NCBI RefSeq assembly: GCF_022346925.1
Contig: NZ_JAKRNJ010000003.1
Location: forward strand, 1 to 64,000
DNA from: Microvirga sp. ACRRW
Lineage (GTDB): Bacteria > Pseudomonadota > Alphaproteobacteria > Rhizobiales > Beijerinckiaceae
Length of the DNA: 64,000 nucleotides
Direction: 5' to 3'
Position numbers and translations under genes: made by a program. The notes under the pieces are model-generated. The model did not search any database and was not told where the DNA came from. It saw nothing but the letters and a program-made list of their open reading frames with translations. Below are positions 10,496 to 31,245 of this stretch, in pieces (the stretch's first letter is position 1; each line of letters opens with the position of its first letter).

Positions 10496-11446
10496 TCAAG
10501 CCTCGCTTAACCGCTTGCGCGCAATCTCCACATAAGACTTCTCCGCCTCGAACCCGATGAAGCTGCGGCCCAGGCTTTTCGCGGCGACGAGCGTCGTGCC
10601 GCTGCCGCAGAAAGGATCGAGCACGATCTGGTTTTCGCGCGTGGTGAGCTCGATGAGTGCCTGCATCAGGCGAACGGGCTTTTGCGTCGGATGCAACCCG
10701 CCCTCCTTCGGCATGAAGCCGAGATCGAGCACGTTGTCTGGATCGGACATGTATTTCAGGAAAGCATCCTGATTGTATGCGCCGACGCCATGAATGAGCG
10801 CATTGTCCGCGAGCGTCGCGCCGATCTTGTAGGGTTTGGTGAGCCATAGAACCGGCTCGAAGGTGGGACGCAGGTTGCCGACGCGCCAGCCGTCCCATTC
10901 TCGTGCAGCGTCTTCATCGCCGCGCCGTTCATAGACCGCGCTCAGGCGTTGCGCGCGATGGGGCGCGCGCTCGCGCATCCAGGCGAGCATATCCTTGTAG
11001 GAGAAGCCTGAATCTTCCATCGCGGCGATGCAGCGGTGGGCGAGCCTACGGCCTGCAAAGACGAGCGCCGAACCTCCGGGCTTCAGCACGCGCAGCCATT
11101 CCGGCGCCCATGTGAGGCACCATTCGTAATATTCGCGCGGAATGGCGCGGTCCGCTTCCGACCAGCCGTTGATGGGCTTGCCGCGCTTCTTGAACACCGC
11201 GCCCGCCTTCGCCTGCGCAGGGCTCGAACCGAGATAGGCGGAATTGGTGTTGGTGTGGAGCACATCCCAATCCTCGGCGCCGATGCCATAGGGAATGTCG
11301 CTCAGGATCAGATGCACGCTCTCGTCGGGCAGCGTCTTGATGAGGTCGATGGAGTTGCCGGAGAGCACGTCATCGAGCGGCAATGCGCTTTCTCCAGCCC
11401 CAGGGGCTGGAACAATGCGACGGCGATGGACGGTATCGTGCCTCAC
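10496..11446 (-). CDS. Site-specific DNA methyltransferase, beta-class amino-methylase, orphan
   Basis: 316 residues as drawn. The catalytic motif SDIPYG (DPPY-type, motif IV) lies in the N-terminal third. The AdoMet-binding motif LDPFCGSGTTLVAAKSLGR lies at the C-terminus, so the order is that of beta-class N6-adenine or N4-cytosine methyltransferases. HPTQKPVRLMQALI and FIGFEAEKSYVEIARKRL are also typical. No restriction endonuclease or specificity subunit is adjacent. The GTG start lacks a good ribosome-binding site; a TTG at 11383 preceded by GGAG (protein starting LPLDDVLSGNSID) is a credible alternative. It is not CcrM, which carries DPPYN and a different C-terminal domain. Confidence 0.85.
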   Translation of the reverse strand: MRHDTVHRRRIVPAPGAGESALPLDDVLSGNSIDLIKTLPDESVHLILSDIPYGIGAEDWDVLHTNTNSAYLGSSPAQAKAGAVFKKRGKPINGWSEADRAIPREYYEWCLTWAPEWLRVLKPGGSALVFAGRRLAHRCIAAMEDSGFSYKDMLAWMRERAPHRAQRLSAVYERRGDEDAAREWDGWRVGNLRPTFEPVLWLTKPYKIGATLADNALIHGVGAYNQDAFLKYMSDPDNVLDLGFMPKEGGLHPTQKPVRLMQALIELTTRENQIVLDPFCGSGTTLVAAKSLGRSFIGFEAEKSYVEIARKRLSEA

Positions 11447-16937: not shown

Positions 16938-17507
16938 CTAAAATAACAGCGGCTGTATCAACTTGCGACGTTCTGGGGGCAGCCCGAGGCGCCAGTCATG
17001 ATAGACCCACCCATCCTCATCATAAAGCGTGTCGAGAAAAGCCTCGAAGGATGGAGCTTGGGGCCAAAGCCGGTCATTGCCTTCTGTGCCCCAAATACTG
17101 GCTTCTTGTACCCAGCAGAAGACATGACCGTGATCGGCAGGCCTTAGTGACAAGAAAAGCGAAAGCCCGTCTGGATTACACCCAATTTCGATCATGTCAG
17201 GCGGTTTAGCCTTACCCCATATCCAGCCATGCCAATGGCGCTCGGCGATAGCCCAATCATAAAAGTGGCTGACAAACGTTGCATCTCCGCCATGGGGAGA
17301 TAATTCACGCGGAACCCCATGGCGGAAACTATCCGGATAGACGCATCCGCCATTGAACGCGATCATGAAGCGGCGATAGTCGTCCGGTAAGGATAAACCC
17401 GTCTCAGTCTCCCAGTGATCGATATCCTGCCTCGGATCCTTCACCGAAGACCACCCAGGCACGTCGGAGTACCAATGCTCTGGCAATGGCACGATCAAAC
17501 GCGGCAT
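16938..17507 (-). CDS. SMI1/KNR4 (SUKH) family protein, copy 1
   Basis: 189 residues. The SUKH core is visible: an N-terminal helix (IDHWETETGLSLPDDYRRFM), the FNGGCVYP turn, PPDMIEIGCNPDG, the strand HVFCWVQE, and a C-terminal helix SFEAFLDTLYDED. SUKH proteins are mostly immunity proteins of polymorphic toxin systems in bacteria. No toxin gene is adjacent. It is a diverged tandem duplicate of the next gene (same length, shared VKDPRQ, YRRFM.AFNGG.VYP, PPDMI.IGC). DNA here is AT-richer than its neighbours (31 G+C of 60 at 17101-17160), suggesting acquisition. Confidence 0.82.
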   Translation of the reverse strand: MPRLIVPLPEHWYSDVPGWSSVKDPRQDIDHWETETGLSLPDDYRRFMIAFNGGCVYPDSFRHGVPRELSPHGGDATFVSHFYDWAIAERHWHGWIWGKAKPPDMIEIGCNPDGLSLFLSLRPADHGHVFCWVQEASIWGTEGNDRLWPQAPSFEAFLDTLYDEDGWVYHDWRLGLPPERRKLIQPLLF

Positions 17508-17581: not shown

Positions 17582-18151
17582 TTAAAACACGAGCAGCTTC
17601 GCGAGCTTGTCGTAACCCGGCCTACACCAGTTCTTATAATCAGACCCATCGGGCTCATCGAAGAGCGTATCGAGGAAGTTCTCGAAAGAGGCAGCTTGGT
17701 GCCAAAGTTGGTCGTTGCCATCGGTGCCCCACATATTCGTGCTGTGCACCCAGCAAAAAATTTGTCCATAATCTTCGGCACGGACCGACATGAGAATTTG
17801 TAGCCCACCCGGATCACAACCGATGAAGATCATGTCAGGCGGTGTACCTCTGCGATACACCTCTCCGCGCCAATATCGTTCAGCCGAATCCCAAGAATAG
17901 AATGGATTAACGACAGTAACAGGCTCAACGGAAGGATACCGCTTGAGAGGCACGTTGTAGCGAAAGATGCGCGGATAGACGCGCCCGCCATTGAAAGCCA
18001 GCATGAACCGGCGATAGCCATCGGGCAGTGTATGACCTGTCCTGCTCTCCCAAGCAGCAATGGCTTGACGCGGGTCCTTGACGAAAGACCAGTCGCGCTC
18101 GCCCTCGTTCCATTTCTCCGTCACGGGTATAATTAGCCTTCGGGCGGTCAT
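17582..18151 (-). CDS. SMI1/KNR4 (SUKH) family protein, copy 2
   Basis: 189 residues, paralogous to copy 1 by eye over the whole length (TGHTLPDGYRRFMLAFNGG; PPDMIFIGCDPGG; QIFCWVHSTNMWGTDGNDQL; SFENFLDTLFDE). Transcribed ahead of copy 1 on the same strand, with 74 bases between them. Base composition is distinctly low in G+C (28 of 60 at 17881-17940, against 40 of 60 at 18421-18480 in parB). An orphan immunity role is an inference from the family; no partner toxin lies in the window. Confidence 0.82.
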   Translation of the reverse strand: MTARRLIIPVTEKWNEGERDWSFVKDPRQAIAAWESRTGHTLPDGYRRFMLAFNGGRVYPRIFRYNVPLKRYPSVEPVTVVNPFYSWDSAERYWRGEVYRRGTPPDMIFIGCDPGGLQILMSVRAEDYGQIFCWVHSTNMWGTDGNDQLWHQAASFENFLDTLFDEPDGSDYKNWCRPGYDKLAKLLVF

Positions 18152-18180: not shown

Positions 18181-19065
18181 TTACGGATTCAACCGCCGGC
18201 ACAGGCCATCGAGCTGCTCCAAGGTCTTGTAACTGATGCGCAATTCGCCGCCGCTGCCCTTGTGATCGATGGAGACGGTAAGGCCCAGAACATCCTGCAG
18301 CACGCGCTCCAGCGCGCGGGTGTCGGGGTCCTTCTGTACCTTGGGCTTTGCGGCGGATTTCGCATCGACCTTGGACGGTTCGGCGTTCTCCGTCTGCGCG
18401 ATGGATTCGACCTGACGCACGCTCAGGCCCTGATCCATCACCTGCTTGGCGACGGCCATCGGGTCCTTCACGGCCAGCAGCGCACGGCCGTGACCGGCAG
18501 AAAGCTTGCGTTCCACAAGCATCTTCTTCACCGGATCGGGCAGATCGGTGAGACGCATCATGTTGGCGATGTGGCTGCGACTCTTGCCGATGATTTTTGA
18601 GAGATTCTCCTGCGTGTAGGAGAATTCAGCCATCAGGCGCGCATAACCTTCCGCCTCTTCGATGGGGTTGAGATCGGCGCGCTGAACGTTTTCGAGAATG
18701 GCGTATTCGAGCGAGGTCTTGTCGTCGATATTGACGATGACCACCGGCACTTCGTGCAGGCCCGCCTTCTGCGATGCGCGCCAGCGGCGCTCGCCGGCAA
18801 CGATCTCATACGAATCCATTTTGTTCGGCAGAGGCCGGACGACGATAGGCTGGATGATGCCGCGATCCTTGATGGACTGGGTCAGCTCCTGCAGTTCCGT
18901 ATCCTCGAACACCTTGCGCGGATTGCGCGGATTCGGAACGAGGAACTCGACAGGCACCTTTTTCTGCCCACCCTTGTTCGCACCCTGCATGGTGCCGATT
19001 TCGGCGCCGACTTCGCCGATCAATGCGGCCAGGCCCCGGCCGAGCGACTTCGCTTCTTTTGCCAT
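18181..19065 (-). CDS. parB: Chromosome partitioning protein ParB
   Basis: 294 residues. It starts MAKEAKSLGRGLAALIGE, as expected for chromosomal ParB. The CTP-binding boxes (QPIVVRPL and IVAGERRWRASQKAG), the helix-turn-helix (FSYTQENLSKIIGKSRSHIANMMRL) and the C-terminal dimerisation domain (EQLDGLCRRLNP end) are all present. ParB loads at parS and slides as a clamp. The ATG was preferred over an upstream TTG. It lies 18 bases downstream of parA, with two parS sites within 4 kb. Confidence 0.97.
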   Translation of the reverse strand: MAKEAKSLGRGLAALIGEVGAEIGTMQGANKGGQKKVPVEFLVPNPRNPRKVFEDTELQELTQSIKDRGIIQPIVVRPLPNKMDSYEIVAGERRWRASQKAGLHEVPVVIVNIDDKTSLEYAILENVQRADLNPIEEAEGYARLMAEFSYTQENLSKIIGKSRSHIANMMRLTDLPDPVKKMLVERKLSAGHGRALLAVKDPMAVAKQVMDQGLSVRQVESIAQTENAEPSKVDAKSAAKPKVQKDPDTRALERVLQDVLGLTVSIDHKGSGGELRISYKTLEQLDGLCRRLNP

Positions 19066-19083
19066 TGCTTGTCTCAACTCTTT

Positions 19084-19923
19084 TTATGCGGCGCGCAAAG
19101 CGCGTTCACGCTGAATGATTTCGGATGCCAAACGGAGATAGGCCTGCGAGCCCGTGCACTTGATGTCGTAGAGCAGAACCGGCTTGCCGTGAGACGGCGC
19201 TTCCGACACACGCACGTTTCGCGGGATCATGGTCTCGTAGACCTTGTCGCCCATGAACTCGCGCACGTCGGCCACGACCTGGCCCGACAGGTTGTTGCGG
19301 GGGTCAAACATGGTGAGCACCACGCCGTGGATCGTCAGCTGCGGGTTCAGGGCCGAACGCACCTGTTCGACTGTCTTGAGCAGCTGGCTGAGGCCTTCCA
19401 GAGCAAAAAATTCGCACTGGAGGGGCACTAGAACGGCGTCAGCGGCGGTCAACGCGTTGATGGTCAGCAGATTAAGCGAAGGCGGACAGTCGATCAAGAT
19501 ATAGGTAAACACTTCGCTTACCTCTTCACTCATTAGAGATTGAATCGCTGTCCGGAGGCGATGAGCACGGTCTCGCTCGCTCGCAATCTCCAATTCGATG
19601 CCAAGAAGGTCGAGCGTCGACGGCGCAACGTAGAGACCGGGCACCACCGTCTCGGTGATGCTCTCGTTCAGCGAGGCTTCGCCGGCGAGGACGTGATAGG
19701 TCGAAACCTGACGGCTCTTACGGTCGATGCCAAGGCCGGTCGAGGCGTTGCCCTGCGGGTCGAGGTCGACGATCAGCACCTTCTCGCCGATGGCAGCAAG
19801 CGCCGTGCCGAGATTGATGGCCGTGGTCGTCTTGCCGACGCCGCCTTTCTGGTTGGCGAGCACGAGAATACGGGGCTTCACGCCACGCGCTCCAGCGGTA
19901 GGTTCGCTGCGGTCGGTCATCAT
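19084..19923 (-). CDS. parA: Chromosome partitioning ATPase ParA
   Basis: 279 residues. The deviant Walker A motif KGGVGKTTTAINLG, the switch region (DLDPQGNASTGLGI) and Walker B ILIDCPPSLNLLT identify a ParA/Soj ATPase. It binds DNA non-specifically as an ATP dimer and moves ParB-parS complexes. The start codon at MMTDRS overlaps the rsmG stop by 4 bases (ATGA), which argues for translational coupling and against a 28-codon upstream extension inside rsmG. Confidence 0.97.
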   Translation of the reverse strand: MMTDRSEPTAGARGVKPRILVLANQKGGVGKTTTAINLGTALAAIGEKVLIVDLDPQGNASTGLGIDRKSRQVSTYHVLAGEASLNESITETVVPGLYVAPSTLDLLGIELEIASERDRAHRLRTAIQSLMSEEVSEVFTYILIDCPPSLNLLTINALTAADAVLVPLQCEFFALEGLSQLLKTVEQVRSALNPQLTIHGVVLTMFDPRNNLSGQVVADVREFMGDKVYETMIPRNVRVSEAPSHGKPVLLYDIKCTGSQAYLRLASEIIQRERALRAA

Positions 19924-20546
19924 GAATGGCTCTCGATGGAGGTTATGCGAAGAATCCTGGCCTCGGAATCGGTGCGGCTTGGCAGGATATCTGCCTCGAA
20001 TGTCCACCTTTTCCGAGCCTCGGTCAATTCAGACTCGGCGTCTCGACCTTTGGGAAAGAGGCCGGTTGTCCCCGTTTTCAACATGGGCTCAGTCCATTCC
20101 AGCAACTGGGTTAACGAGGCGAGCGCCCGCGCGGAGACCACATCGGCTTGGCCAATGAAACCGGGAATCACGGTTTCAAGCCGGGCGGCATGAACAGTGA
20201 CAGAAGATTCCGTCAGCCGCGCAACATGGCGCAGGAAGGAGCATTTGCGGGAATTGCTCTCGACAAGACGGACCTTGAGCCCCCTTTCCTGCCCCGCAAT
20301 GGCGAGCACGAGCCCCGGGAAGCCGGCGCCAGAACCTAGATCAACCCAGGTTTTGGCCTCGGGCGCCAGTTCCAGAAGTTGGAGGGAATCGACGATATGT
20401 CGGTCCCAGATCTGGTCGAGCGTGGCGGGGCCCACGAGGTTCTTAATTGCCTGCCAACGGCGAAGCTCGCGCTCCAGAAGCTCAAGCTTCTCGTGCGTTT
20501 CACGTGAAACATTCAAAGCGGTGCGGGCGGATACGGTGGCGCTCAT
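19920..20546 (-). CDS. rsmG: 16S rRNA (guanine527-N7)-methyltransferase
   Basis: 208 residues. The AdoMet-binding motif is [16 protein letters not shown]. The N-terminal segment [20 protein letters not shown] and the later [17 protein letters not shown] fit RsmG (GidB). It overlaps mnmG upstream and parA downstream by 4 bases each. Its early codons (NVSRET) are written in a parS sequence, so the DNA serves both as coding sequence and as a ParB site. Confidence 0.96.
20496..20511. promoter_or_regulatory. parS: parS site inside rsmG
   Basis: CGTTTCACGTGAAACA contains the perfect 14-base palindrome GTTTCACGTGAAAC, the core of the widely conserved parS consensus TGTTTCACGTGAAACA (one outer mismatch). 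It lies 0.6 kb from parA. Confidence 0.93.
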
Positions 20547-22456
20547 GAGGCCACCGCATTCACATTGCGGGATCCGCGCGAAGAAGCCTTCTTGGCATGA
20601 GCGGCCAACAGGGTCAGCGCGGCAGGGGTGATGCCTTCGATGCGAGCGGCCTGACCGAGGGTCTTCGGACGCACCAAATCGAGCTTGGCCTTGATTTCGT
20701 TCGATAAGCCGGGAAGCCCCTGGAAGTCCAAGGTCTCCTCCAGCACGATCCCCTCGTCCCGGCGATAGGCGGCGATATCGGCCTGCTGTCGGTCAAGATA
20801 GACCGCATAGGTGGCGTCCGTCTCCAGACGCTCCTGAACCTGTGGGCTCACAGTGGCAAATTCCGGCCAAGCCTTGGCGAGGTCGCTCCAGGTGATCATC
20901 GGATAGGATAGGAGCTGATAGGCACTGCGACGGACACCGTCCTGGTTGAGGCTTAACCCATGACGAGACGCTTCCTGCGGCGTCAGGCTCATGCTCTGGA
21001 GCTTGTTGCGGATAGCATCCATCTCAGCTTGCGAACGGCGGAAATGCGCCTCGCGGGCCGAGCCGACACAGCCGATTTCCAGCCCCTTCCCCGTCAGGCG
21101 CTCGTCCACATTGTCGATGCGCAGGCTCAGGCGATATTCCGAGCGGGAGGTGAACATGCGGTAGGGTTCGCTCACGCCCCGGGTGATCAGGTCGTCGATG
21201 AGCACGCCGATATAGGATTCCGCCCGGTCGAAGATCACGCTCTCCTGCCCAGCCGCGCGGCGGGCGGCATTGATACCGGCAACAAGCCCTTGAGCGCCCG
21301 CCTCCTCATAGCCGGTCGTACCGTTGATCTGACCGGCCAGGAACAGGCCCTTCACAGCCTTGGTCTCAAGCCCGGCTGTGAGGTTTCGCGGGTCCACATA
21401 ATCGTATTCGATGGCATAGGCGGGCTGGATCATCCGCACGTTCTCGAGGCCGGGAATATGCTTCAGGAAGTCCAGCTGCACGTCCTCCGGCAGGGAGGTC
21501 GAGATGCCATTGGGATAGACGGTGAAATCGTCGAGGCCTTCCGGCTCCAGAAAGATCTGGTGGCCGTCGCGGTCGCCGAAGCGCACCACCTTATCCTCGA
21601 TGGAGGGGCAATAGCGCGGGCCGGTGCCCTGGATATCGCCAGAATACATAGCCGAGCGGTGAAGGTTGCCCCGGATCAGCTCATGGACCTTGGCCGTCGT
21701 GCGGGTGATGCCGCATTCGATCTGGGGTGTGGTGATCTTGTCCGTCAGGAGCGAGAACGGCACTGGCTCGTCATCCGCCGCCTGCTTGTCGACACCCGCC
21801 CAGTCAATGGTGCGGCCATCGAGGCGCGGCGGCGTTCCGGTTTTGAGGCGGCCAAGACTGAAGCCGAGACGGGCGAATGTCTTCGGCAAGCCGAGAGACG
21901 GGCGCTCGCCCATGCGGCCTGCGGGAATCTTCTTCTCGCCGATATGAATCAGGCCGGAGAGGAACGTGCCTGTGGTGATAACCACCGCGCCGGTTCTCAA
22001 CGTGCGGCCATCGGCCAGCAGGAGACCGGTCACGCGACCGTCCTGAACGACGAGGTCGTCCGCCTCCCCTTCCACGATGGTGAGGTTGTCGGTCTGGAGC
22101 AGCTCGGCCTGCATAGCCCGGGCATAGAGCTTCCGGTCAGCCTGGGTACGGGGTCCGCGCACGGCGGGGCCCTTGCGGCGGTTCAGGAGACGAAACTGGA
22201 TTCCGGCCTTGTCGGCGATACGACCCATCACGCCATCGAGGGCATCGATCTCGCGGACCAGATGACCTTTGCCGAGACCGCCGATGGCGGGGTTGCAGGA
22301 CATGGCGCCGATGGTAGCGAGCTTATGGGTCACGAGAGCCGTGCGCGCGCCCATGCGCGCCGAAGCAGCGGCTGCCTCGGCACCGGCATGGCCACCACCG
22401 ACCACGACCACATCAAAGATGTCAGGCGTCAAAATCTGACTCAAAGGAAACTCCAT
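20543..22456 (-). CDS. mnmG: tRNA uridine-5-carboxymethylaminomethyl modification enzyme MnmG (GidA)
   Basis: 637 residues. The FAD-binding motif [21 protein letters not shown] lies at residues 16-36. [20 protein letters not shown], the NAD-binding middle, [21 protein letters not shown] and the C-terminal MnmE-interaction domain are intact. With MnmE it modifies the wobble uridine of several tRNAs. It is the first gene of the mnmG-rsmG-parA-parB chain, and its upstream region holds a parS site and a GANTC cluster. Confidence 0.98.
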
Positions 22457-22501
22457 GCCTGGGGTCTATGGCCTCGTCGCGCAGAGGTCAAAAGGGCAAA
22501 A

Positions 22502-22517
22502 TGTTCCACGTGAAACA
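22502..22517. promoter_or_regulatory. parS: parS site upstream of mnmG
   Basis: TGTTCCACGTGAAACA differs at one position from the canonical parS consensus. It lies 46 bases upstream of the mnmG start, in the likely promoter region, so ParB occupancy could affect this operon. Confidence 0.9.
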
Positions 22518-22534
22518 TTCGCTCTGCCCACCGG

Positions 22535-22566
22535 TTCTGCACACGATTCCCACAGGCTGTGCAGAA
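22535..22566. repeat. 9-bp inverted repeat in the mnmG promoter region
   Basis: TTCTGCACA, 14-base spacer, TGTGCAGAA. No T run follows on either strand, so it is more likely a protein-binding site or RNA structure than a terminator. Confidence 0.6.
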
Positions 22567-22625
22567 TGGATTCAGCACCATTCAACCGATTCGTGAACAG
22601 GACTCATAAAGAGTCGCACAGATTC
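22545..22625. promoter_or_regulatory. Cluster of six GANTC (CcrM) sites
   Basis: GANTC occurs at 22545, 22569, 22588, 22601, 22611 and 22621, six times in 81 bases; about one per 256 bases is expected by chance. The pair at 22601 and 22611 forms GACTC-ataaa-GAGTC. In alphaproteobacteria GANTC is methylated by CcrM and read by GcrA, which couples promoters to passage of the replication fork. Confidence 0.7.
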
Positions 22626-22646
22626 GGCTTATCCTTACTCGAGCGG

Positions 22647-23963
22647 CTATTTGCCAATGCAGAAGCTGGAAAACAGGCGATCCAGCACATCCTCGACATC
22701 GACACGGCCTGTGATCTCTCCAACCGCGCGCGCCGCCAAGCGGACTTCTTCAGCGGCAAGCTCCAATGGGCCGTGCGTTACCAACAGGGTACGTCCGGCT
22801 TCCAGGGAATGATGAGCACGCTCAAGCGCCCTGCGGTGACGCTCTCGGGTCAGGATGGCATCGCCCAGGCCGATAGCAATCTCGGCCTCATGTTCCAGGG
22901 CGGCGATCAATTCAGGCAGCCCCTCCCCGGTGGAGGCCGATATTGCCAGGTCGCAATCGTGTCGGTTCCGATTCAAATCGGCTTTGGTCCCGACCTTGAG
23001 AAGACTGCGGGCCATGGGCGCTTCCGTCTCCGCTCCCTCCGGCGGGATGAGCCAAAGCACGAGGTCGGCATCCTGGGCACGGGCACGGGCACGAGAGACA
23101 CCCTCCTGCTCGATTACGTCGCCGCTGTCTCGAAGGCCAGCCGTATCCACGATCACCACTGGCAATCCGCCGAGGTCGCAATGCACCTCGATCACATCGC
23201 GGGTGGTTCCTGCGATGGGCGAGACGATGGCGACGTCTCTCCGCGCGAGCGCGTTCAGGAGAGTGGACTTGCCCGCATTCGGAGGCCCGGCGAGGACGAC
23301 GGTGAAGCCTTCGCGGAGGCGTTCGCCGCTGCGGTTCGAGAGCGCCTGCCCGATCTCGATATGAAGCGTTTCGAGCCGCTGCAGGATGTCAGCCTCCAGA
23401 TCCTCCGGCACGTCGCCCTCGTCGGAAAAGTCGAGGCTTGCTTCGAGCAAGGCAAGCGCCTGAAGCGTGCCCTCGCGCCAGCGCTCGGCGGCGTTGCCCA
23501 GGCGGCCTTCGAGCTGGAGCATCGCCTGCCGGCGCTGCGCCTCCGTCTCCGCATCGATCACATCGGCGAGGCCTTCGACCTGGGAGAGATCCATCCGGCC
23601 ATTGAGGAAGGCGCGGCGGGTGAATTCGCCTGCTTCTGCAGGACGGCAATGCGGGATGGTGCCGAGGGCTTTCAACACGGCTGCTCGTGTGGCGAGACCG
23701 CCGTGGATATGAAGCTCGGCTTGGTCCTCTCCCGTAAAACTGCGCGGTCCCGGCATCCAGAGCACGAGAGCCTGATCGAGGGGTTCTCCCGTTTCAGGCT
23801 CACGCAGGATGCGGACGGCAGCCTGACGGGGCTCGGGCACGGACCTGCCGAGGGTTTCCAGAATGGTTCGGCTCTGCGGCCCGCTGATGCGGATGATGCA
23901 CACGGCCGCGCGACCATGGCCGGAGGCAGTGGCGAAGATGGTGTCATCCGAACGCATGAGCAT
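22647..23963 (-). CDS. mnmE: tRNA modification GTPase MnmE (TrmE)
   Basis: 438 residues. The N-terminal tetrahydrofolate-binding domain starts DDTIFATASGHGRAAVCIIR. The inserted G domain carries GPPNAGKSTLLNAL (P-loop), the IAGTTRDV switch and DTAGLR. The C-terminus ends CIGK, the diagnostic C-x-G-K motif. Partner of MnmG in wobble uridine modification. Two in-frame ATG codons lie six bases apart; spacing from AAGG favours the second (23957), but the difference is two residues. Confidence 0.97.
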   Translation of the reverse strand: MLMRSDDTIFATASGHGRAAVCIIRISGPQSRTILETLGRSVPEPRQAAVRILREPETGEPLDQALVLWMPGPRSFTGEDQAELHIHGGLATRAAVLKALGTIPHCRPAEAGEFTRRAFLNGRMDLSQVEGLADVIDAETEAQRRQAMLQLEGRLGNAAERWREGTLQALALLEASLDFSDEGDVPEDLEADILQRLETLHIEIGQALSNRSGERLREGFTVVLAGPPNAGKSTLLNALARRDVAIVSPIAGTTRDVIEVHCDLGGLPVVIVDTAGLRDSGDVIEQEGVSRARARAQDADLVLWLIPPEGAETEAPMARSLLKVGTKADLNRNRHDCDLAISASTGEGLPELIAALEHEAEIAIGLGDAILTRERHRRALERAHHSLEAGRTLLVTHGPLELAAEEVRLAARAVGEITGRVDVEDVLDRLFSSFCIGK

Positions 23964-24095
23964 GAACCTTGTTGGACCTCTTGGGAGATCCGATGATTAT
24001 GGTTGAGGAACACTTAACGCGGGACGGACCAAGGATCGGTCTTGATCCGAATCGCTTGGCCGCACCCCGTGGACCGCCCCTTTGGAGCAACATCC

Positions 24096-26102
24096 ATGAA
24101 CCGCCTCGGGAATGCCAGTTCGCCCTATCTCCTGCAGCACCGGGACAATCCTGTCCATTGGTGGGAATGGGGACCGGAGGCGCTCGCCGAGGCGAAGCGC
24201 CAGAATAAACCCGTCCTCATCTCCATCGGCTATGCCGCCTGCCATTGGTGTCACGTGATGGCACACGAGAGCTTCGAGGATCCCGACGTGGCCGCCGTGA
24301 TGAACGAGCTTTACGTGAACATCAAGGTCGACCGGGAGGAGCGGCCCGATGTGGACCATGTCTATATGAGCGCGCTCCACCTTCTCGGCGAGCAGGGCGG
24401 CTGGCCGCTCACCATGTTCCTGACGCCGGAGGGTGAGCCGTTCTGGGGCGGCACGTATTTTCCGAAAGAACCGAAATTCGGCCGGCCTGGCTTCGTGCAG
24501 GTGCTCAATGAAATCAGCCGTCTCTATCACGCGGAGCCCGAGCGCATCCTCAAGAACCGGGACACGTTGAAAGCGCATCTCGCGAAAGGCGCGGAATCCG
24601 ACGGCGGCACATTGGGCCTTGCCGATCTCGACCGTATGGGCCTGCGCCTGTCGGAGCTCATCGACACGCAGCATGGCGGATTGCAGGGCGCGCCGAAATT
24701 CCCGAACCCGCCGATCCTCGAATATCTCCTGCGATACGCGCACCGCACCAACGACACCGATGCCCGCGCGAGATTTCTTCTCACGATGGAGCAGATGGCA
24801 CTGGGTGGAATCCGCGATCACCTCGGTGGAGGCTTCGCGCGCTACTCCGTGGACGAGCGCTGGCTCGTGCCGCATTTCGAGAAGATGCTCTACGACAATG
24901 CGCAACTCCTCGAACTCTATGCGCTGGCCTATGCTGAAACCGGACGCGCCTTGTTCAAGGATGCAGCCGAGGGCATCGTCCTCTGGCTCAAGCGTGAGAT
25001 GGTGACGCCCGAAGGCGCCTTCGCGTCGAGTCTCGACGCGGATTCGGAAGGCGAGGAAGGACGCTTCTATGTGTGGAGCCTTTCCGAGATCCGGGAGGTG
25101 TTGGGCGAAGAGGACGCCGCCTTCTTCGCAAAAGTCTATGACATCACGGATGAGGGAAACTTCGAGGGCCACAACATCCCGAACCGTCTCATCACCGGCG
25201 AAGCCCCTGCCCCAGTAGAAGAGCGTCTCGCGATCATGCGCGCGAAACTGCTGGAGCGACGTGCCTCGCGTGTGCGTCCTGGACTCGACGACAAGGTGCT
25301 GGCCGACTGGAACGGTCTCATGATTGCGAGCCTCGTGCGCGCAGCTCTCCTCCTCGATCATCCGGAATGGATCGACTTCGCCGGGCGCGCCTATCGTTTC
25401 ATCTCCGATTCAATGAGCCGCGATGGCAGGCTCGGACATTCCTGGCGCGAGGGCTCGCTGATCTTTCCCGGCTTCGCGCTCGACCATGCGGCCTTGATGC
25501 GCGCTGCACTCGCCTTGCATGAAGCCGCGAACGACGCTTCCTATTTGCGCGATGCGGAAACCTGGCGCGATGTGCTGCTCGATGAATTCATGATTGGGGA
25601 CAGTGGTTGCCTCGCCATGACGGCGAAGAGCGCCGATCCACTCGTGGTGCGCCCGCAGCCCACTCACGACGAGGCGGTGCCCAACGCCAATGGCGTATTC
25701 GCGGAAGCGCTCGTGCGGCTCGCACAGATCACGGAAACCGAATCCAATCACCGGCGTGCAACGCAGATCCTCGACCAACTCGTCGGCATCGCCCGCTCCT
25801 CCCCGCTTGGTCACACGTCGATCCTCAACGCGCTCGATCTGCACTTGCGGGGCTTGAGCATTCTCGTCACGGGAGACGATGCGGAAGCACTTCATGCGGC
25901 AGCTTTGCGCGTGCCCTATCTCGACCGAAGCGTGCGGTTGCTGCGCTCCGGCGAGATGCTGGATGAAAACCATCCGGCGAAAGCTCTCGCCTCATCGAGC
26001 ATGAATACACAAGCGCTCGTCTGCGCAGGTCAGCGCTGCTCGCTTCCTGTCAGCACGCCCGATGCTCTCGCGGTTCAGGTGAAAGAGATGCTGACGTCAT
26101 AG
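24096..26102 (+). CDS. Thioredoxin-domain protein (DUF255 / YyaL-SSP411 family)
   Basis: 668 residues. An N-terminal thioredoxin-like domain has Cys49-His-Trp-Cys52 in AACHWCHVM, preceded by the hallmark [22 protein letters not shown] long alpha/alpha-barrel domain resembling glycosyl hydrolases/epimerases follows ([20 protein letters not shown] region near residue 525). Function is unknown in the family. The ATG preceded by GGAG at 8-base spacing was chosen over one 18 codons upstream. It is divergent from mnmE, with a ~130-base gap. Confidence 0.92.
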
Positions 26103-26153
26103 GAACAGAGACGCGAGCCGGAGCTTTCACATCGGACAACGCTGGAAGCGACG

Positions 26154-26252
26154 ATGTTCTTTTTCTTCTCGAACCGGATCGGATGTTTGGGCTCGCTGCT
26201 GATCTCCGCCGGCCTGACGCTGCTGATCCTGTTCATGATGGGCGTGCTGTAA
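26154..26252 (+). CDS. 32-aa single-pass membrane peptide
   Basis: A GGAAG ribosome-binding site precedes ATG by 5 bases. The peptide begins MFFFFSNRIGCLGSLL and continues as one hydrophobic helix (ISAGLTLLILFMMGVL). The NR-GCLGS motif followed by a transmembrane helix recurs, from memory, in short hypothetical proteins of this order. It lies 51 bases after the DUF255 gene and just before a terminator, so probably co-transcribed. No function is known. Confidence 0.65.
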   Translation: MFFFFSNRIGCLGSLLISAGLTLLILFMMGVL

Positions 26253-26266
26253 ACCTCAAACAAAAA

Positions 26267-26294
26267 CCCCACCCTCTCGCGTGAGAGGATGGGG
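26267..26294 (-). terminator. Terminator downstream of rho (shared with the small membrane gene)
   Basis: CCCCA-c-CCTCTC / GAGAGG-a-TGGGG stem with a GCGT loop and one mismatch. On the minus strand it is followed by a T5 run, fitting the end of rho; read on the plus strand it can also end the convergent transcript. Confidence 0.8.
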
Positions 26295-26322
26295 CCAAAA
26301 TTCCGCAGCCGGACGTTCCGGC

Positions 26323-27588
26323 TTACGTGTTCATCGAGTCGAAGAACTCGCCGTTCGACTTGGTCTGACGCAGCTTGTCGAGCAGGAACTCGATCGCATC
26401 CACCGTGCCCATCGGGTTGAGGATGCGGCGCAGCACGTACATCTTCTTGAGCGTGTCGGCCGGAACCAGCAGCTCTTCCTTACGAGTGCCGGAGCGGGTG
26501 ATGTCGATGGCCGGGAAGGTGCGCTTGTCGGCAACCTTGCGGTCGAGGATGATTTCCGAGTTGCCGGTGCCCTTGAACTCTTCGAAGATCACTTCGTCCA
26601 TGCGCGAGCCGGTATCGATGAGCGCGGTTGCGATGATGGTGAGCGAACCGCCCTCCTCGATGTTACGAGCCGCACCGAAGAAGCGCTTCGGGCGCTGGAG
26701 CGCGTTCGCATCCACACCGCCGGTGAGCACCTTGCCGGAGGACGGAACCACCGTGTTGTAGGCGCGGCCGAGGCGCGTGATCGAGTCGAGCAGGATGACC
26801 ACGTCGCGGCCATGCTCCACGAGGCGCTTGGCCTTCTCGATCACCATCTCGGCCACCTGCACGTGGCGGGTCGCCGGCTCGTCGAAGGTGGAGGCCACGA
26901 CCTCGCCCTTCACGGAGCGCTGCATGTCGGTGACTTCCTCCGGGCGCTCGTCGATGAGCAGCACGATGAGGTAGCACTCAGGATGATTGGTGGTGATCGA
27001 CTGCGCCACGTTCTGCATCAGCACGGTCTTACCGGTGCGCGGCGGCGCGACGATGAGCGCACGCTGGCCCTTACCGATGGGCGAGACGATGTCGATGATG
27101 CGCGGCGAGAAATCCTTGCGGGTCGGATCCTCGATCTCGAGCTTGAAGCGCTCGTGCGGGAAGAGCGGCGTCAGGTTGTCGAAATGCACCTTGTGCCGGA
27201 TCTTCTCAGGGTCCTCAAAATTGATCGTGTTGACCTTGAGCAGCGCGAAATAACGCTCGCCCTCTTTGGGACCGCGGATCGGGCCGTCCACCGTGTCGCC
27301 GGTGCGCAGGCCGAATTTCCGGATCTGGCTGGGCGAGACGTAAATGTCGTCCGGTCCCGGCAGGTAGTTCGAATCGGCCGAGCGGAGGAAGCCGAAGCCG
27401 TCCTGCAGCACCTCGACGACGCCTGCGCCGATGATCTCCACCTCGCGCGCGGCAAGCTGCTTGAGGATGGCGAACATGAGCTCCTGCTTGCGCATCGTGC
27501 TCGCGTTCTCGACCTCGAGCTCCTCGGCGAAGGTGATGAGTTCGGTGGCGGATTTGGATTTCAGGTCTTGAAGTTTGATTTCCCTCAT
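26323..27588 (-). CDS. rho: Transcription termination factor Rho
   Basis: 421 residues. An N-terminal helical lobe ([20 protein letters not shown]), the cold-shock RNA-binding domain ([21 protein letters not shown]) and the RecA-type ATPase domain are present. The P-loop is [19 protein letters not shown], the Walker B region [14 protein letters not shown], and the C-terminal motif [20 protein letters not shown]. The upstream extension of 30 codons was rejected; MREIKLQDL is the universal start in the order. It is last in the hemE-hemJ-GNAT-like-rho direction. Confidence 0.98.
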
Positions 27589-27793
27589 CGGGGAACACTC
27601 TCGGGGTAAAATGCGCGGGCAGGATCGCTGTGCGCGGGGGGAGATCGGGGAAATATTCGACAGGGCCGCCCAGTTCACGAAGAGTGACTGTTAAGAGCCC
27701 TGTAGGCCCCCGTGCAGCGCAACCTGTCTTTTATGGAAGAGGACTTCTTTATAGCCGCGTTCGCGGGATTTCTCAAGTCCCTTCCAATCCGCA

Positions 27794-28516
27794 TTATTCA
27801 GGACGATGCCAGACGCGCAACGGGCCGATGGGCCGGAAACCATTCCTGCAAGCGGCGTCCAGGTCTTCCCCACGCTCATAGCCAACCAGAGGACAATCTG
27901 GGAAGCTCTCGTCAGCACACCCGATCAAGGCCTGCCAGACGGCATCCGTATCGGCTCCAACCGTGAAAACATTAGACAAGCCCACTACGCCTGCAGCCTC
28001 CGAGAGAATGCCTCCGCCGATGATCGTGCCTGATCGTTCGACCTGCACGAAACGAAGAGCAGGCTCTCGCAGGAGGGTGGATTTGAACGGAATATCGGCG
28101 GGTGAAACTCCCTCATTCCAGGCTTGAGACCAGATAACCAGCTCCGTCTCGTTGCGTATAATCCGAGCGGCGACGCCAAGATGAGAGTGATGTTCGGCAA
28201 GAGGATCGCAAGAGATCCACTCCGCATCGAACAGCTTCGTGAAACCAAGCGCAGCCAGATCGATGCAGGCGAAGCTGTCCTTCACCGCCCACCCACGTCC
28301 AGAATGCTCAGCCATGGCCGCAGAAATGGAATCGAGGATATCAGCGTCTGCCGCCGGACCGACAAGCGTCACGGCATCGGGATAGAACCGGGGCGTGCCA
28401 TGCTGGTTGAGCCAAAGCCCATCGTGAAACTCGCCACCTCTTCCATTGGCGCGGCAGATGACATCGCACCATTCTGCATTGTTGCGCGCCGCCAGCGCGA
28501 CAAGCTCTTTTCTCAT
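27794..28516 (-). CDS. GNAT-like acetyltransferase domain protein (putative)
   Basis: 240 residues. The C-terminal half has a GNAT-like pattern: VERSGTIIGGGILSEAAGVVGLSNVF (strands beta-4/5) then DCPLVGYERGEDLDAACRNGFRPIGPLRVWHR, resembling motif B. The N-terminal half (WCDVICRANGRGGEFHDGLW) is unrecognised and contains paired Cys residues. Starts 19 bases after the hemJ stop and is probably co-transcribed with it. Substrate unknown. Confidence 0.6.
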   Translation of the reverse strand: MRKELVALAARNNAEWCDVICRANGRGGEFHDGLWLNQHGTPRFYPDAVTLVGPAADADILDSISAAMAEHSGRGWAVKDSFACIDLAALGFTKLFDAEWISCDPLAEHHSHLGVAARIIRNETELVIWSQAWNEGVSPADIPFKSTLLREPALRFVQVERSGTIIGGGILSEAAGVVGLSNVFTVGADTDAVWQALIGCADESFPDCPLVGYERGEDLDAACRNGFRPIGPLRVWHRPE

Positions 28517-28535
28517 CGCGCCGCCGACAGCCGCC

Positions 28536-28961
28536 TTAGAACGGCTTCACGATCACGAGGATCACGATGCCGATCATCAGCACCGTCGGCACCTCGTTGA
28601 GGATACGGTAGTACTTCGCGGGCTTGGTGTTCTTGTCGGCGGCGAAGTCTTTCAGGCGGCGCACATAGACGCCATGCAGGCCGGACATGATCAGCACGAG
28701 GGCGATCTTGGCGTGCATCCAGCCGGAAACGTACCAGCCGCCGTCCCAGAGCAGGTAGAGGCCGAGCACCCAGGTGACGATCATGGCTGGGTTGATGATC
28801 GCCTTCAGCAGACGCCGCTCCATGATCTTGAAGGTCTCGGACTGGATCGAGCCCCTCGGCGTATCCGCGTGATAAACGAAGAGGCGCGGCAGATAGAGCA
28901 TGCCCGCCATCCAGGCGACGACGGCAATGACATGAAACGCTTTCAGCCACAAATACAACAT
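28536..28961 (-). CDS. hemJ: Protoporphyrinogen oxidase HemJ
   Basis: 141 residues with four hydrophobic segments. HemJ signatures are WLKAFHVIAVVAWMAGMLYLPRLFVYH (the conserved His coordinates heme), LKAIINPAMIVTWVLGLYLLW, WMHAKIALVLIMSGLHG and the closing RILNEVPTVLMIGIVILVIVKPF. It oxidises protoporphyrinogen IX to protoporphyrin IX at the inner membrane. It begins one base after the hemE stop, so both heme steps are in one operon. Confidence 0.95.
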   Translation of the reverse strand: MLYLWLKAFHVIAVVAWMAGMLYLPRLFVYHADTPRGSIQSETFKIMERRLLKAIINPAMIVTWVLGLYLLWDGGWYVSGWMHAKIALVLIMSGLHGVYVRRLKDFAADKNTKPAKYYRILNEVPTVLMIGIVILVIVKPF

Positions 28962-28962
28962 C

Positions 28963-30000
28963 TTAGGCCCCCCGGACGCGAGCGATCATCTGCTCGACAT
29001 GCGCGATCGGCGTCTCCGGCAGGATGCCGTGGCCGAGATTGAAGATATGCGGACGGCCGCGCACGGCCTGCAGAATGTGATCGACGCCATCCTCCAGCGG
29101 CTTACCCCCGGCAATCAGGGCCAGCGGATCGAGATTACCCTGGGTCGCGACCGTGCCCGGCAGGGTCGGCAGCACCAGAGCCGGATCGAGGGTCCAGTCC
29201 AGCGCCAGCGCATCGCCGATCCCGGCAGCGGCAAAGCGATGGAGATTGGCTCCGCCGCCACGCACGAAGACGATGACCTTGGCCTGGGGCCGGGCGGCCT
29301 TCAGCCCTTCGACCATCTTCCGGATCGGGTTGAGGGAGAGCCGGTCGAACAGAGCCGGCGGCAGGGCTGAGCCAAAGCTCTCGAAAATCTGGACGGCTTC
29401 CGCGCCCGCATCGATCTGGCGGATGAGATAGGCGGTCGAGGCCCGAACCAGCTTCTCGATCAGCGCATCCATGAAGGCCGGATCGCGATAGGCGGTGAGC
29501 CGGGCAGGCGCCTGGTCCGGGGTGCCCTTCCCCGCGATCATGTAGCTCGCCACCGTCCAGGGTGCCCCGCAGAAGCCGAGAAGGGTGGTTTCCTTCGGCA
29601 GCGACTGCCTCAGGCGGTCAAGGGTTTCGAAGACGGGCTCAAGCCGCTCCAGCGGCAGCTCATCGGCAAGCCTCGAAAAATCCTTTTCCGAAGTTACCGG
29701 ATCGAGCTTCGGACCCTCGTTCTCAACGAAGCGCACGTCCTGACCCAACGCATGGGGAATGACCAGGATATCGGAAAACAGGATCGAGGCATCGAAGCCG
29801 AACCTTTTGATCGGCTGTAGCGTTACTTCCTCGGCAAGCCTCGGCGTGTAGCAGAGATCGAGAAAGGAACCTGCTTGTTTCCGGGTCTCCCGGTATTCCG
29901 GCAGATAACGGCCTGCCTGCCGCATGATCCAGATCGGCAAGGGCCAGACCGGCTCGCCGTTCAGCACGCGGAGGATCGCTTTGGTGGGACGCTCGCTCAC
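28963..30000 (-). CDS. hemE: Uroporphyrinogen decarboxylase
   Basis: 345 residues. The N-terminal signature PIWIMRQAGRYLPEYRETR, DILVIPHALGQDVRFVENEGP, GFCGAPWTVASYMIAG and the C-terminal HIFNLGHGILPETPIAHVEQMI are diagnostic. It decarboxylates four acetates of uroporphyrinogen III. The GTG start follows GGAGAAGG at a 3-base distance; the 33-codon upstream extension into the origin region was rejected. Its 5' end borders the putative replication origin, as in Caulobacter. Confidence 0.97.
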   Translation of the reverse strand: MSERPTKAILRVLNGEPVWPLPIWIMRQAGRYLPEYRETRKQAGSFLDLCYTPRLAEEVTLQPIKRFGFDASILFSDILVIPHALGQDVRFVENEGPKLDPVTSEKDFSRLADELPLERLEPVFETLDRLRQSLPKETTLLGFCGAPWTVASYMIAGKGTPDQAPARLTAYRDPAFMDALIEKLVRASTAYLIRQIDAGAEAVQIFESFGSALPPALFDRLSLNPIRKMVEGLKAARPQAKVIVFVRGGGANLHRFAAAGIGDALALDWTLDPALVLPTLPGTVATQGNLDPLALIAGGKPLEDGVDHILQAVRGRPHIFNLGHGILPETPIAHVEQMIARVRGA

Positions 30001-30112
30001 AGGCCTTCTCCAATAAAGAAGAATTCTTGAATCTAAGAATCTGCTGTTTCTCTTGGGCCGTGAATCGCAAAGCCGCAACCCCGTCCACAACCCTTCCACA
30101 TCGCCCAGGCCG

Positions 30113-30128
30113 TTAACTGTTCATTAAC
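30113..30128. promoter_or_regulatory. CtrA-type binding site 1 in putative oriC
   Basis: TTAACTGTTCATTAAC matches TTAA-N7-TTAAC exactly. In Caulobacter such sites let phosphorylated CtrA silence the origin. Confidence 0.75.
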
Positions 30129-30171
30129 GATTGAGGCGAGGCTGCCCCATTCCTTTCCGAATTCTTAAACC

Positions 30172-30187
30172 TTAACAGCCCGTTAAC
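30172..30187. promoter_or_regulatory. CtrA-type binding site 2 in putative oriC
   Basis: TTAACAGCCCGTTAAC is a second exact TTAA-N7-TTAAC match, 44 bases after the first. An extra TTAA half-site lies at 30165 and another at 30204. Confidence 0.75.
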
Positions 30188-30340
30188 GAATTTGAACGGA
30201 AGGTTAACATTGGACTCGGGGGTGATTCGTGCCGGATTCCCCCAAGCGTGAGAATTGAGACTCACACAGCCCGCTGCCCTGTTGAAGGTTCTCCCGGCAG
30301 ATCACAGCCCCCTTCAACTGGACCTCGGAAAGCAAGCGTT

Positions 30341-30349
30341 CTATCCACA
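30341..30349 (+). promoter_or_regulatory. DnaA-box-like 9-mer in putative oriC
   Basis: CTATCCACA has one mismatch to the consensus TTATCCACA and is followed by an AT-rich TTTATC. Other candidates in the gap are weaker. Confidence 0.5.
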
Positions 30350-30411
30350 TTTATCGACTCCTATACCGACCCCTGCGCATCGATGAGACGCGCGAGCCTG
30401 GGAGATCCGCC

Positions 30412-31245
30412 GTGGCGGGACGCAGCTACTTTCATCTCCATCTCGTCTCCGACTCGACGGGCGAAACCCTGATCACCGTCGCCCGTGCCGTCGTGGCGCA
30501 ATATGAAGGGGTGGCCGCTATCGAGCATGTTTATCCGCTGGTGCGCTCCGCCACGCAGCTCGAGCGGGTGCTGACCGAGATCGAAACCGCGCCGGGCATT
30601 GTGCTCTACACTCTCGTGGACAGCGACTTGACGACCCGCCTGGAAGAGGTCTGCCGTGCCACCGGTTCGCCCTATCTTTCCGTGCTCGCGCCCGTGCACC
30701 AGATGATCTCGTCCTATCTCGGCACGCATTCGACCGCCCGGCCCGGCGCGCAGCACATGCTGAACGCGGAATATTTCAAGCGCATCGACGCCATGAACTT
30801 CACCCTCCTCCATGACGATGGGCACCTGCCCGACGATCTGAACGAGGCTGATGTGATCCTCATGGGCGTGAGCCGCACCTCGAAGACGCCGACGGCGATC
30901 TATCTCGCCAATCGTGGGTTGAAGACGGCCAATTTTCCTCTCGTTCCGGGAATGCCCCTGCCGCCGAAACTGGAGGGGACGAGAAAAGCCCTCATCGTCG
31001 GCCTCGTGGCGACGCCGGAACGCATCGTGCAGATCCGGCAGAACAGACTGCTCAGCCTGAAGGCGGATGACGATACAGCTTACGTGGACCGCGATGCGGT
31101 GGCGGAGGAAATCGCGGCCTCGCGGCGGCTTTTCGCGCGCCATGGCTGGCCGGTCATCGACGTGACGCGCCGCTCCATCGAGGAGACGGCGGCAGCCATC
31201 ATCGATCTTTACCGCGACCATCGCCTGAAATTCATCGCGGAGTAA
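30412..31245 (+). CDS. Pyruvate,phosphate dikinase / PEP synthase regulatory protein (DUF299)
   Basis: 277 residues, GTG start. Bifunctional ADP-dependent kinase and Pi-dependent phosphorylase that inactivates and reactivates PPDK or PEP synthase. The N-terminus [20 protein letters not shown] and the P-loop-like [18 protein letters not shown] are diagnostic, as is [18 protein letters not shown]. This is the RP001 homologue that flanks the origin in Caulobacter. It heads the chain with maf, aroE, coaE and dnaQ. Confidence 0.95.

Follow-up and report, generated by a model that had tools for sequence, protein, structure and literature searches.

Does the 190-bp gap between mnmE and mnmG of Microvirga sp. 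ACRRW, in which a parS site stands beside six GANTC sites, tie transcription of the partitioning genes to replication of the locus itself? The question arises from a preliminary description of the 64,000-nucleotide stretch of DNA that contains the gap (hereafter, the window), which proposed that the expression of these genes may be timed by CcrM/GcrA methylation state and by ParB binding. In alphaproteobacteria, the coupling of segregation to replication has mostly been worked out in Caulobacter, around CtrA, DnaA, and CcrM-responsive promoters. Our comparison of the locus across related genomes determined that the GANTC cluster is real and conserved within Microvirga, and that it recurs in some other lineages without being universal. 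We give a probability of about one half to the reading that the gap controls the mnmG-rsmG-parA-parB operon through methylation sensing of the CcrM/GcrA type, as part of a set formed with oriC and dnaA.

Gene order, parS sites, and candidate promoters

The window represents the origin end of a Microvirga-like chromosome. On its minus strand, the gap (22457 to 22646) separates mnmE (trmE; 22647..23963; NCBIfam NF003661, E 2e-171), the upstream neighbor, from mnmG (gidA; 20543..22456, as listed from ATG 22456; TIGR00136, E 3e-243), which is followed on the same strand by rsmG (gidB; 19920..20546 in the ORF list; TIGR00138, E 5e-36 on 20003-20546), overlapping the mnmG stop, by parA (19084..20007), a Soj-type ATPase gene named from its context and from ParA/MinD/RepA-type matches below the cut-offs, and by parB (18181..19077; TIGR00180, E 7e-60). 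The ORF list and the family matches place these four genes head to tail in a tightly packed chain, which bears out the earlier statement that mnmG leads them and leaves the gap as their promoter region. The parB product is the only ParB_N match of the genome, and parA and parB adjoin the parS region, as in a ParABS system; the genes found here are mnmG-rsmG-parA-parB, not a repABC operon. Downstream of parB, in the same orientation, lie two adjacent and similar 189-aa ORFs (16938-17507 and 17582-18151) that look SMI1/KNR4-like by eye.

For comparison, 153 loci were collected, and the 146 with a found mnmE end were retained, 7 being left out. A match to mnmG is present in 47 of the 48 genus members, the remaining one being without a match, and these 47 gaps were counted for Microvirga. 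Two loci, L062 and L063, come from Microvirga genomes that had been counted before and were kept out of the group counts and of the 97 non-Microvirga loci.

The parS site, TGTTCCACGTGAAACA, occupies 22502..22517 and is a 16-bp palindrome with 0 mismatches to TGTTYCACGTGRAACA. Its core is perfect in 47/47 Microvirga gaps, and a parS with at most one mismatch occurs in 137 of the 146 mnmE-mnmG gaps (two of the 146 being the repeat genomes). The single parS described earlier is thus present in the gap, but it has a companion to be added: a second parS-like site, CGTTTCACGTGAAACA, at the 5' end of rsmG (20496..20511). A further parS-like site, with one mismatch, is located ~428 kb from the gap (G000, contig C14:450840-450853).

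Judged from its sequence, the best-supported candidate promoter of mnmG-parB is P1 (22463..22491, minus strand), with a -35 TTGACC (22491-22486), a 17-nt spacer, and a -10 TAGACC (22468-22463), just downstream of parS and 10 bp away from it. TTTGACC is found in 44/47 Microvirga gaps, and in 44/44 of these a TA follows TTGACC at exactly 17 nt. Upstream of parS, a putative promoter P2 (22569..22597, minus strand) would combine a -35-like TTCACG (22597-22592), a 17-nt spacer, and a -10-like TGAATC (22574-22569) preceded by TG at 22577-22576. Both elements of putative P2 are overlaid by GANTC sites, 19 bp apart, and it is only here that GANTC falls on core elements; P1 has one GANTC over the start codon that it would serve. 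Two features count against methylation-sensed control: 53 bp separate the -35 of P1 from the nearest upstream GANTC, and the TGAATC of P2 is a poor sigma-70 match. A simple E. coli-type promoter scan reported no promoter in 22400-22700, P1 included. GcrA helps RNA polymerase at weak promoters.

Translation of mnmG probably starts at TTG 22444 and not at ATG 22456, to judge from an alignment of starts in which relatives have GTG or ATG at this place, with TGGAG just upstream. With this start, a seventh GANTC (22438..22442) overlaps the start codon. The start-codon GANTC is present in 24/47 Microvirga gaps with AGT, ACT, ATT, or AAT as the second codon, encoding four different residues; it is seen in 0/98 other loci (L062 and L063 included, one further row without a start being left out) and in 4/613 crude control starts. 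That the residue changes while the GANTC is kept points to selection on the methylation site, although common ancestry reduces how many independent events this retention can represent.

GANTC sites in the gap and their conservation in Microvirga

The six GANTC sites of the gap begin at 22545, 22569, 22588, 22601, 22611, and 22621 and fall within 81 bp. The most conserved (22588..22592), in the plus-strand context CGATTCG, is found in 34/47 Microvirga gaps, followed by the site over the P2 -10 (22569..22573; 30/47) and the one at 22621..22625 (23/47). At 22611..22615, the middle base varies, being C in 8 and G in 7 of the 15 relatives that have the site. The site at 22545..22549, abutting a DnaA-box-like TGTGGG (22554-22549), is shared with only a few relatives, and the one at 22601..22605 was not seen at the same position in the close relatives aligned. 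This pattern, in which the middle base or an encoded residue changes and GANTC stays, is as expected if the CcrM site itself were under selection.

Dinucleotide shuffles of the gap contain a mean of 1.0 GANTC and reach six in 1/5,000 cases, in a window that is depleted in this word overall (144 found versus 375.5 expected) and in which the gap holds the densest cluster; the earlier assertion of a density far above chance is therefore confirmed. Across the genus, the 47 gaps contain 178 GANTC, compared with 75 +/- 8 in shuffles and a maximum of 99 in 500 shuffles. This corresponds to 13.4 per kb, against 2.9 in whole loci (4.7x), while seven control pentamers reach 1.0-1.5x. In some rows of these per-group gap counts and shuffles, and of the locus set behind the parS counts, the gap end runs 15 nt too far into mnmG, owing to a gapped alignment start.

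A tree built from mnmG coding DNA delimits a clade of 33 genomes with support of 100/99, and our claim of conservation for the P2 block, CACGAATCG, rests on this independently chosen clade. The block is found in 32/33 of its members and in no genome outside it; the 33rd, L030, has the different context GGATTCG with a GANTC at the same place, so that this GANTC is present in 33/33. The 32 genomes were chosen by CACGAATCG itself, and its invariance among them is a product of that selection; in these genomes the TT before the block is also invariant, TGAATC follows at a fixed distance, and a second GANTC is found in 30/32, always 19 bp on. For comparison, 0/75 fourfold-degenerate mnmG sites are invariant in the same 32 genomes, the mean frequency of the commonest base being 0.70. 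The absence of the P2 block from 15/47 Microvirga counts against the main reading. In L029 and L034, the P2 block stands 11-12 bp, or about one helical turn, closer to parS than it does in the window, which hints that the phase between the two may matter.

Such a conserved block could also be a fixed site for a protein, TTCACGAATCG...TGAATC and TGTGGA/TGTGCAG being bound by DnaA or by an unnamed regulator, with methylation incidental. We consider this alternative unlikely, even though the conservation around 22588 reaches past the GANTC itself (TTCACGAATCG occurs in 32 of the 33-genome clade) and two of these words are frequent, with 25 occurrences of TGTGGA across the 47 gaps where the loci predict 5.6, and 24 of TGTGCA where they predict 1.2. 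Unrelated words are raised too, for instance AGGTGT (8 versus 1.5) and GTGTGA (8 versus 1.0), because the genomes share descent. Moreover, other GANTC of the gap, the one over the start codon included, keep GA.TC while the middle base varies, and in the 15 Microvirga that lack the block GANTC is nonetheless 3.6x enriched. Both observations argue against a fixed site.

Two further elements of the preliminary description are present in the gap but poorly conserved. The 9-bp inverted repeat (TTCTGCACA at 22558-22566 and TGTGCAGAA at 22535-22543) has fully paired arms in 4/32 relatives examined, and in 20/32 the arms pair at 4-6 of the 9 positions, its better conserved arm being the right-hand one, TGTGCAG. 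L023, a single genome in which both arms are changed and still pair, favors the repeat; the poor pairing elsewhere led us to reject it as an operator or RNA hairpin. No terminator-like hairpin was found, and no Rfam match in 20000-31000. Similarly, GACTC-ATAAA-GAGTC is found at 22601-22615, but the spaced pair occurs in 1/47 Microvirga gaps, that of the genome studied here, and its pairing is trivial, any GACTC reading as GAGTC on the opposite strand; it was discarded as a special element. The inverted repeats are largely incidental.

Occurrence in other lineages and elsewhere in the genome

The preliminary description called for a count of GANTC in the homologous gaps across Hyphomicrobiales, and the outcome is divided. 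Enrichment extends to the Brucella/Ochrobactrum gaps (7.4x in 8 genomes, control pentamers 0.8-1.7x; 38 GANTC versus 16.6 +/- 3.9 in shuffles) and to Stappia (5.8x in 2 genomes, where one control pentamer itself reaches 4.3x), and a mixed set of 31 other genomes stands at 2.7x. In contrast, the gaps of Bradyrhizobium/Afipia/Rhodopseudomonas (25 genomes) and those of other genera of the same family (31 genomes) are not enriched, both at 1.0x. These two large groups rule out the cluster as a feature of Hyphomicrobiales as a whole, and that they do without it also counts against the main reading.

The arrangement around parS also differs between lineages. In the Ochrobactrum group and its kin, parS is followed by CTGTGGAATC (or by CTGTGGAAT, which lacks the C) and then by TTGACTC and ATGAGTC, with GANTC typically at +20, +39, and +58 from parS, whereas the Microvirga sites lie mostly on the other, upstream side. 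Among the Ochrobactrum/Brucella loci and their kin, L092, L094, L097-L099, L101, L126, L083, and L093 show parS followed by CTGTGGAAT(C) and more GANTC, with pairs 19 bp apart and ingredients like those of Microvirga placed beyond parS. A 19-bp GANTC pair is found in 15/97 non-Microvirga loci. A P2-like promoter was sought by eye in the Ochrobactrum group and rejected: the 19-bp steps recur, but no matching -10 was found. Taken with the groups at 1.0x, the different layouts about parS indicate that the combination exists in more than one arrangement and is absent from many genera.

Because parS has GANTC sites beside it in several lineages (chiefly upstream in Microvirga, chiefly downstream in the Ochrobactrum group), these sites might serve partition and not transcription, methylation beside parS altering ParB loading, ParB spreading, or origin handling, with the promoters as bystanders. 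A precedent comes from the repABC-Ch2 replicon of A. tumefaciens, where, according to an excerpt of PMC11514494, one of the GANTC sites was proposed to function in partitioning, since it lies nearer parS. Such a role is distinctly unlikely in our estimation: the conserved Microvirga pair has promoter-like geometry, parS itself contains no GANTC, and many genera have a parS here without a GANTC cluster.

On the genome scale, GANTC is rare, with 2,318 sites in the 1,228,300 bp that we scanned (the window's own contig, window included, and two others shown to be long by earlier matches; ~31% of the assembly). Only four places in this 1.228 Mb hold at least 4 GANTC in 120 bp. The gap has 6 sites within 81 bp, a stretch at 315266-315374 on its contig has 6 within 109 bp, the oriC region described below has 4 within 51 bp, and the fourth place, 267096, is inside an open frame. 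Clustering alone is not special: each of seven control pentamers of the same build forms between 5 and 30 clusters of this kind, one of them, TCNGA, which is almost double GANTC in frequency, has a cluster of six, and random uniform placement of as many sites produces six in 120 bp in 2/200 trials. What stands out is the location of the GANTC clusters, par, oriC, and dnaA accounting for three of the four.

Passive clustering, whereby GANTC is depleted in coding DNA, tolerated between genes, and left to accumulate near the origin, seems quite improbable to us as an account of the gap. GANTC does occur at 3.2 per kb outside ORFs of at least 100 aa compared with 2.0 inside (450.8 kb), and the text available from PMC3973325 describes it as generally commoner in intergenic than in coding DNA of the class, as it does for similarly built pentamers, a bias that also weighs against the main reading. 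Against passive clustering stand the 4.7-fold excess of the Microvirga gaps, which the control pentamers do not share, and the fixed spacing of the sites throughout the genus.

An oriC-type region was recognized from its place between hemE and ppsR (30000..30411) and from its boxes, with 8 GANTC, 3 TTAA-N7-TTAAC boxes, and 3 TCCACA/TGTGGA; alphaproteobacterial oriC is usually found at this place. The region lies ~7.7 kb from the gap. The region was readable in 46 of the 47 Microvirga loci and in 92 of 146 over all groups. All 46 Microvirga regions contain 6-12 GANTC, two of them at fixed columns in 46/46, and enrichment amounts to 3.5-8.4x in every readable group (46, 8, 1, 21, 2, and 13 loci). 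The control pentamers do not exceed 2.0x in Microvirga or 3.2x in the other groups with at least 2 loci, and reach 5.9x in the group that consists of one locus.

The cluster at 315266-315374 (G000, contig C14; L185) lies upstream of dnaA (313318-314868, minus strand), in the spacer that separates it from rpsT (315867-316139, minus strand); both genes, and the dnaN that comes after dnaA, were named by eye from the sequence. The dnaA query has a single match per genome in 48/48, and 41 of the 48 genus genomes entered the comparison (all except G018, G033, G035, G040, G041, G043, and G044). Three GANTC columns are present in 41/41 of them and two more in 40 and 38, and at one of these sites, three of the four preceding bases are shared by fewer than half of the genomes. 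Conserved DnaA-box-like words, TTATCCACA and CTGTGGAC, were observed near the array. Upstream of dnaA, GANTC number 4-6 per 105 bp in Microvirga (41 genomes) as against 0-4 per 110 bp in 25 further alphaproteobacteria. The two ranges meet at 4, and Microvirga has the strongest array, which led us to set the array aside as a general alphaproteobacterial trait. Steps of 10-12 bp in the dnaA array and of 11 in oriC were seen, but helical phasing is not claimed, given shared descent and the steps of 10, 10, 13, 19, and 24 at mnmG in the window.

Dense methylation-site arrays are thus found both at oriC and upstream of dnaA, as in the Dam/SeqA type of system. We give little credence to a SeqA-like sequestration, in which a protein on hemimethylated GANTC arrays would tether oriC, dnaA, and the mnmG-par region to one another once initiation has occurred: the three arrays do parallel the GATC arrays of E. 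coli, where the gidA promoter beside oriC is probably partly co-sequestered (PMC5835720, in the portion consulted), but such a protein is not needed if hemimethylation in Caulobacter is explained by the absence of CcrM, as is thought in the excerpted PMC3973325, and the dnaA array weakens outside Microvirga.

Proposed methylation-sensed control and its kin systems

The genome encodes the factors that a methylation-sensed control region would use. Its CcrM has 398 residues, with Caulobacter CcrM as the best solved match (over 351 residues, E 8e-148), and is encoded beside an rnhB-like gene (named by eye); a single PF07750 protein (E 3e-55) corresponds to GcrA. A second gene of the N6_N4_Mtase family (PF01555) lies at 10517-11317 of the window, ~20 kb from oriC. 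The word CGATTCG at 22588 (plus strand), kept in 32/33 of the clade, fits the GcrA activation motif YGAKTCK. In the passages available to us, GcrA is held to activate promoters with this motif (PMC7987155) and to bind methylated GANTC better (PMC3667746, PMC7987155), and the ctrA, dnaA, ftsZ, and mipZ promoters are said to respond to CcrM methylation (PMC4287350, PMC3708114). In excerpts of PMC3973325, origin-near GANTC are hemimethylated in about 80% of Caulobacter cells of a mixed population, and Caulobacter GANTC are thought to remain so until the predivisional stage, CcrM being absent. As for parS itself, Ardissone et al. 2016 describe, in the part consulted, GANTC methylation at the Caulobacter parS locus as not significantly altered by methylase expression or by the lon mutation (PMC5172544).

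From this anatomy, we infer an operon served by P1 together with an upstream methylation-sensed element that acts as a second promoter or as a control. The housekeeping promoter P1, 10 bp downstream of parS, would transcribe the operon, and P2, upstream of parS with both its -35 and its -10 under CcrM sites, may contribute to it. Before replication, CcrM would keep the sites of the gap fully methylated. Owing to its ~7.7 kb distance from oriC, the gap would turn hemimethylated very soon after initiation, at the same time as the oriC GANTC array, and the dnaA array would follow later, on arrival of the fork. A methylation-sensing factor, for which GcrA acting with sigma-70 RNA polymerase is the likeliest candidate, would bind there and raise or lower operon transcription, presumably until late in the cycle, when CcrM would return the sites to full methylation. 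ParB at parS may additionally act on P1, directly or by spreading.

The proposal that the partitioning genes are timed by CcrM/GcrA and ParB is therefore upheld in part: the gap is a promoter region, CcrM and GcrA are encoded, GANTC is conserved in the genus, parS lies 10 bp from P1, and YGAKTCK is matched, but the arrangement is not general in Hyphomicrobiales. Since a methylation cluster like those of oriC and dnaA occupies the parS gap, segregation and replication may share a timing mark. If true, a methylation-sensed, parS-containing promoter region driving parAB would put the segregation genes under the replication-passage clock of dnaA, and the conserved sites, the intervals between them, and both promoters offer concrete bases to mutate, which makes the idea directly testable. 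A wider version, in which GANTC at oriC, dnaA, and the parS/mnmG-par promoter form a three-part circuit that couples origin firing, initiator supply, and expression of the centromere genes, as a CcrM counterpart of Dam/SeqA reached again in Ochrobactrum/Brucella and Stappia by other layouts, such as GANTC series beside parS in 19-bp steps, is doubtful.

What is new here is the placement of a CcrM-type promoter architecture at a chromosomal parS; by title and abstract, no paper among the matches listed is about a GANTC cluster at a chromosomal parS/mnmG gap. The parS consensus and the mnmG/rsmG/parA/parB neighborhood are those of chromosomal ParABS systems, with parS beside parAB near oriC, and the GANTC cluster beside parS is what sets the Microvirga gap apart from them. 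Like the CcrM/GcrA promoters of Caulobacter (ctrA P1, dnaA, ftsZ, mipZ), the gap has conserved GANTC in or beside promoter elements, in a genome that encodes CcrM and GcrA, and a fit to YGAKTCK. Unlike them, it gathers six to seven sites in one short region, includes parS within the promoter region, and precedes an operon of tRNA/rRNA-modification and partition genes.

The repABC-Ch2 promoter of A. tumefaciens, whose GANTC sites matter for its activity or for ori2 maintenance according to the text at hand (PMC11514494), similarly places GANTC in a partition-gene promoter near parS of a CcrM/GcrA organism; it belongs, however, to a secondary replicon with RepABC, whereas Microvirga has a chromosomal ParABS near a DnaA-type oriC. 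The Dam/SeqA system of E. coli, in which gidA and mioC adjoin oriC, shares the adenine-methylation arrays at oriC and before dnaA, as well as the position of gidA (mnmG) near the origin; excerpts of PMC5835720 give 9 GATC in 225 bp for the dnaA promoter region and about ten times the expected GATC density for oriC and dnaA. In contrast to E. coli, Microvirga uses GANTC and CcrM instead of GATC and Dam, carries a separate array at the mnmG region, and has a parS there.
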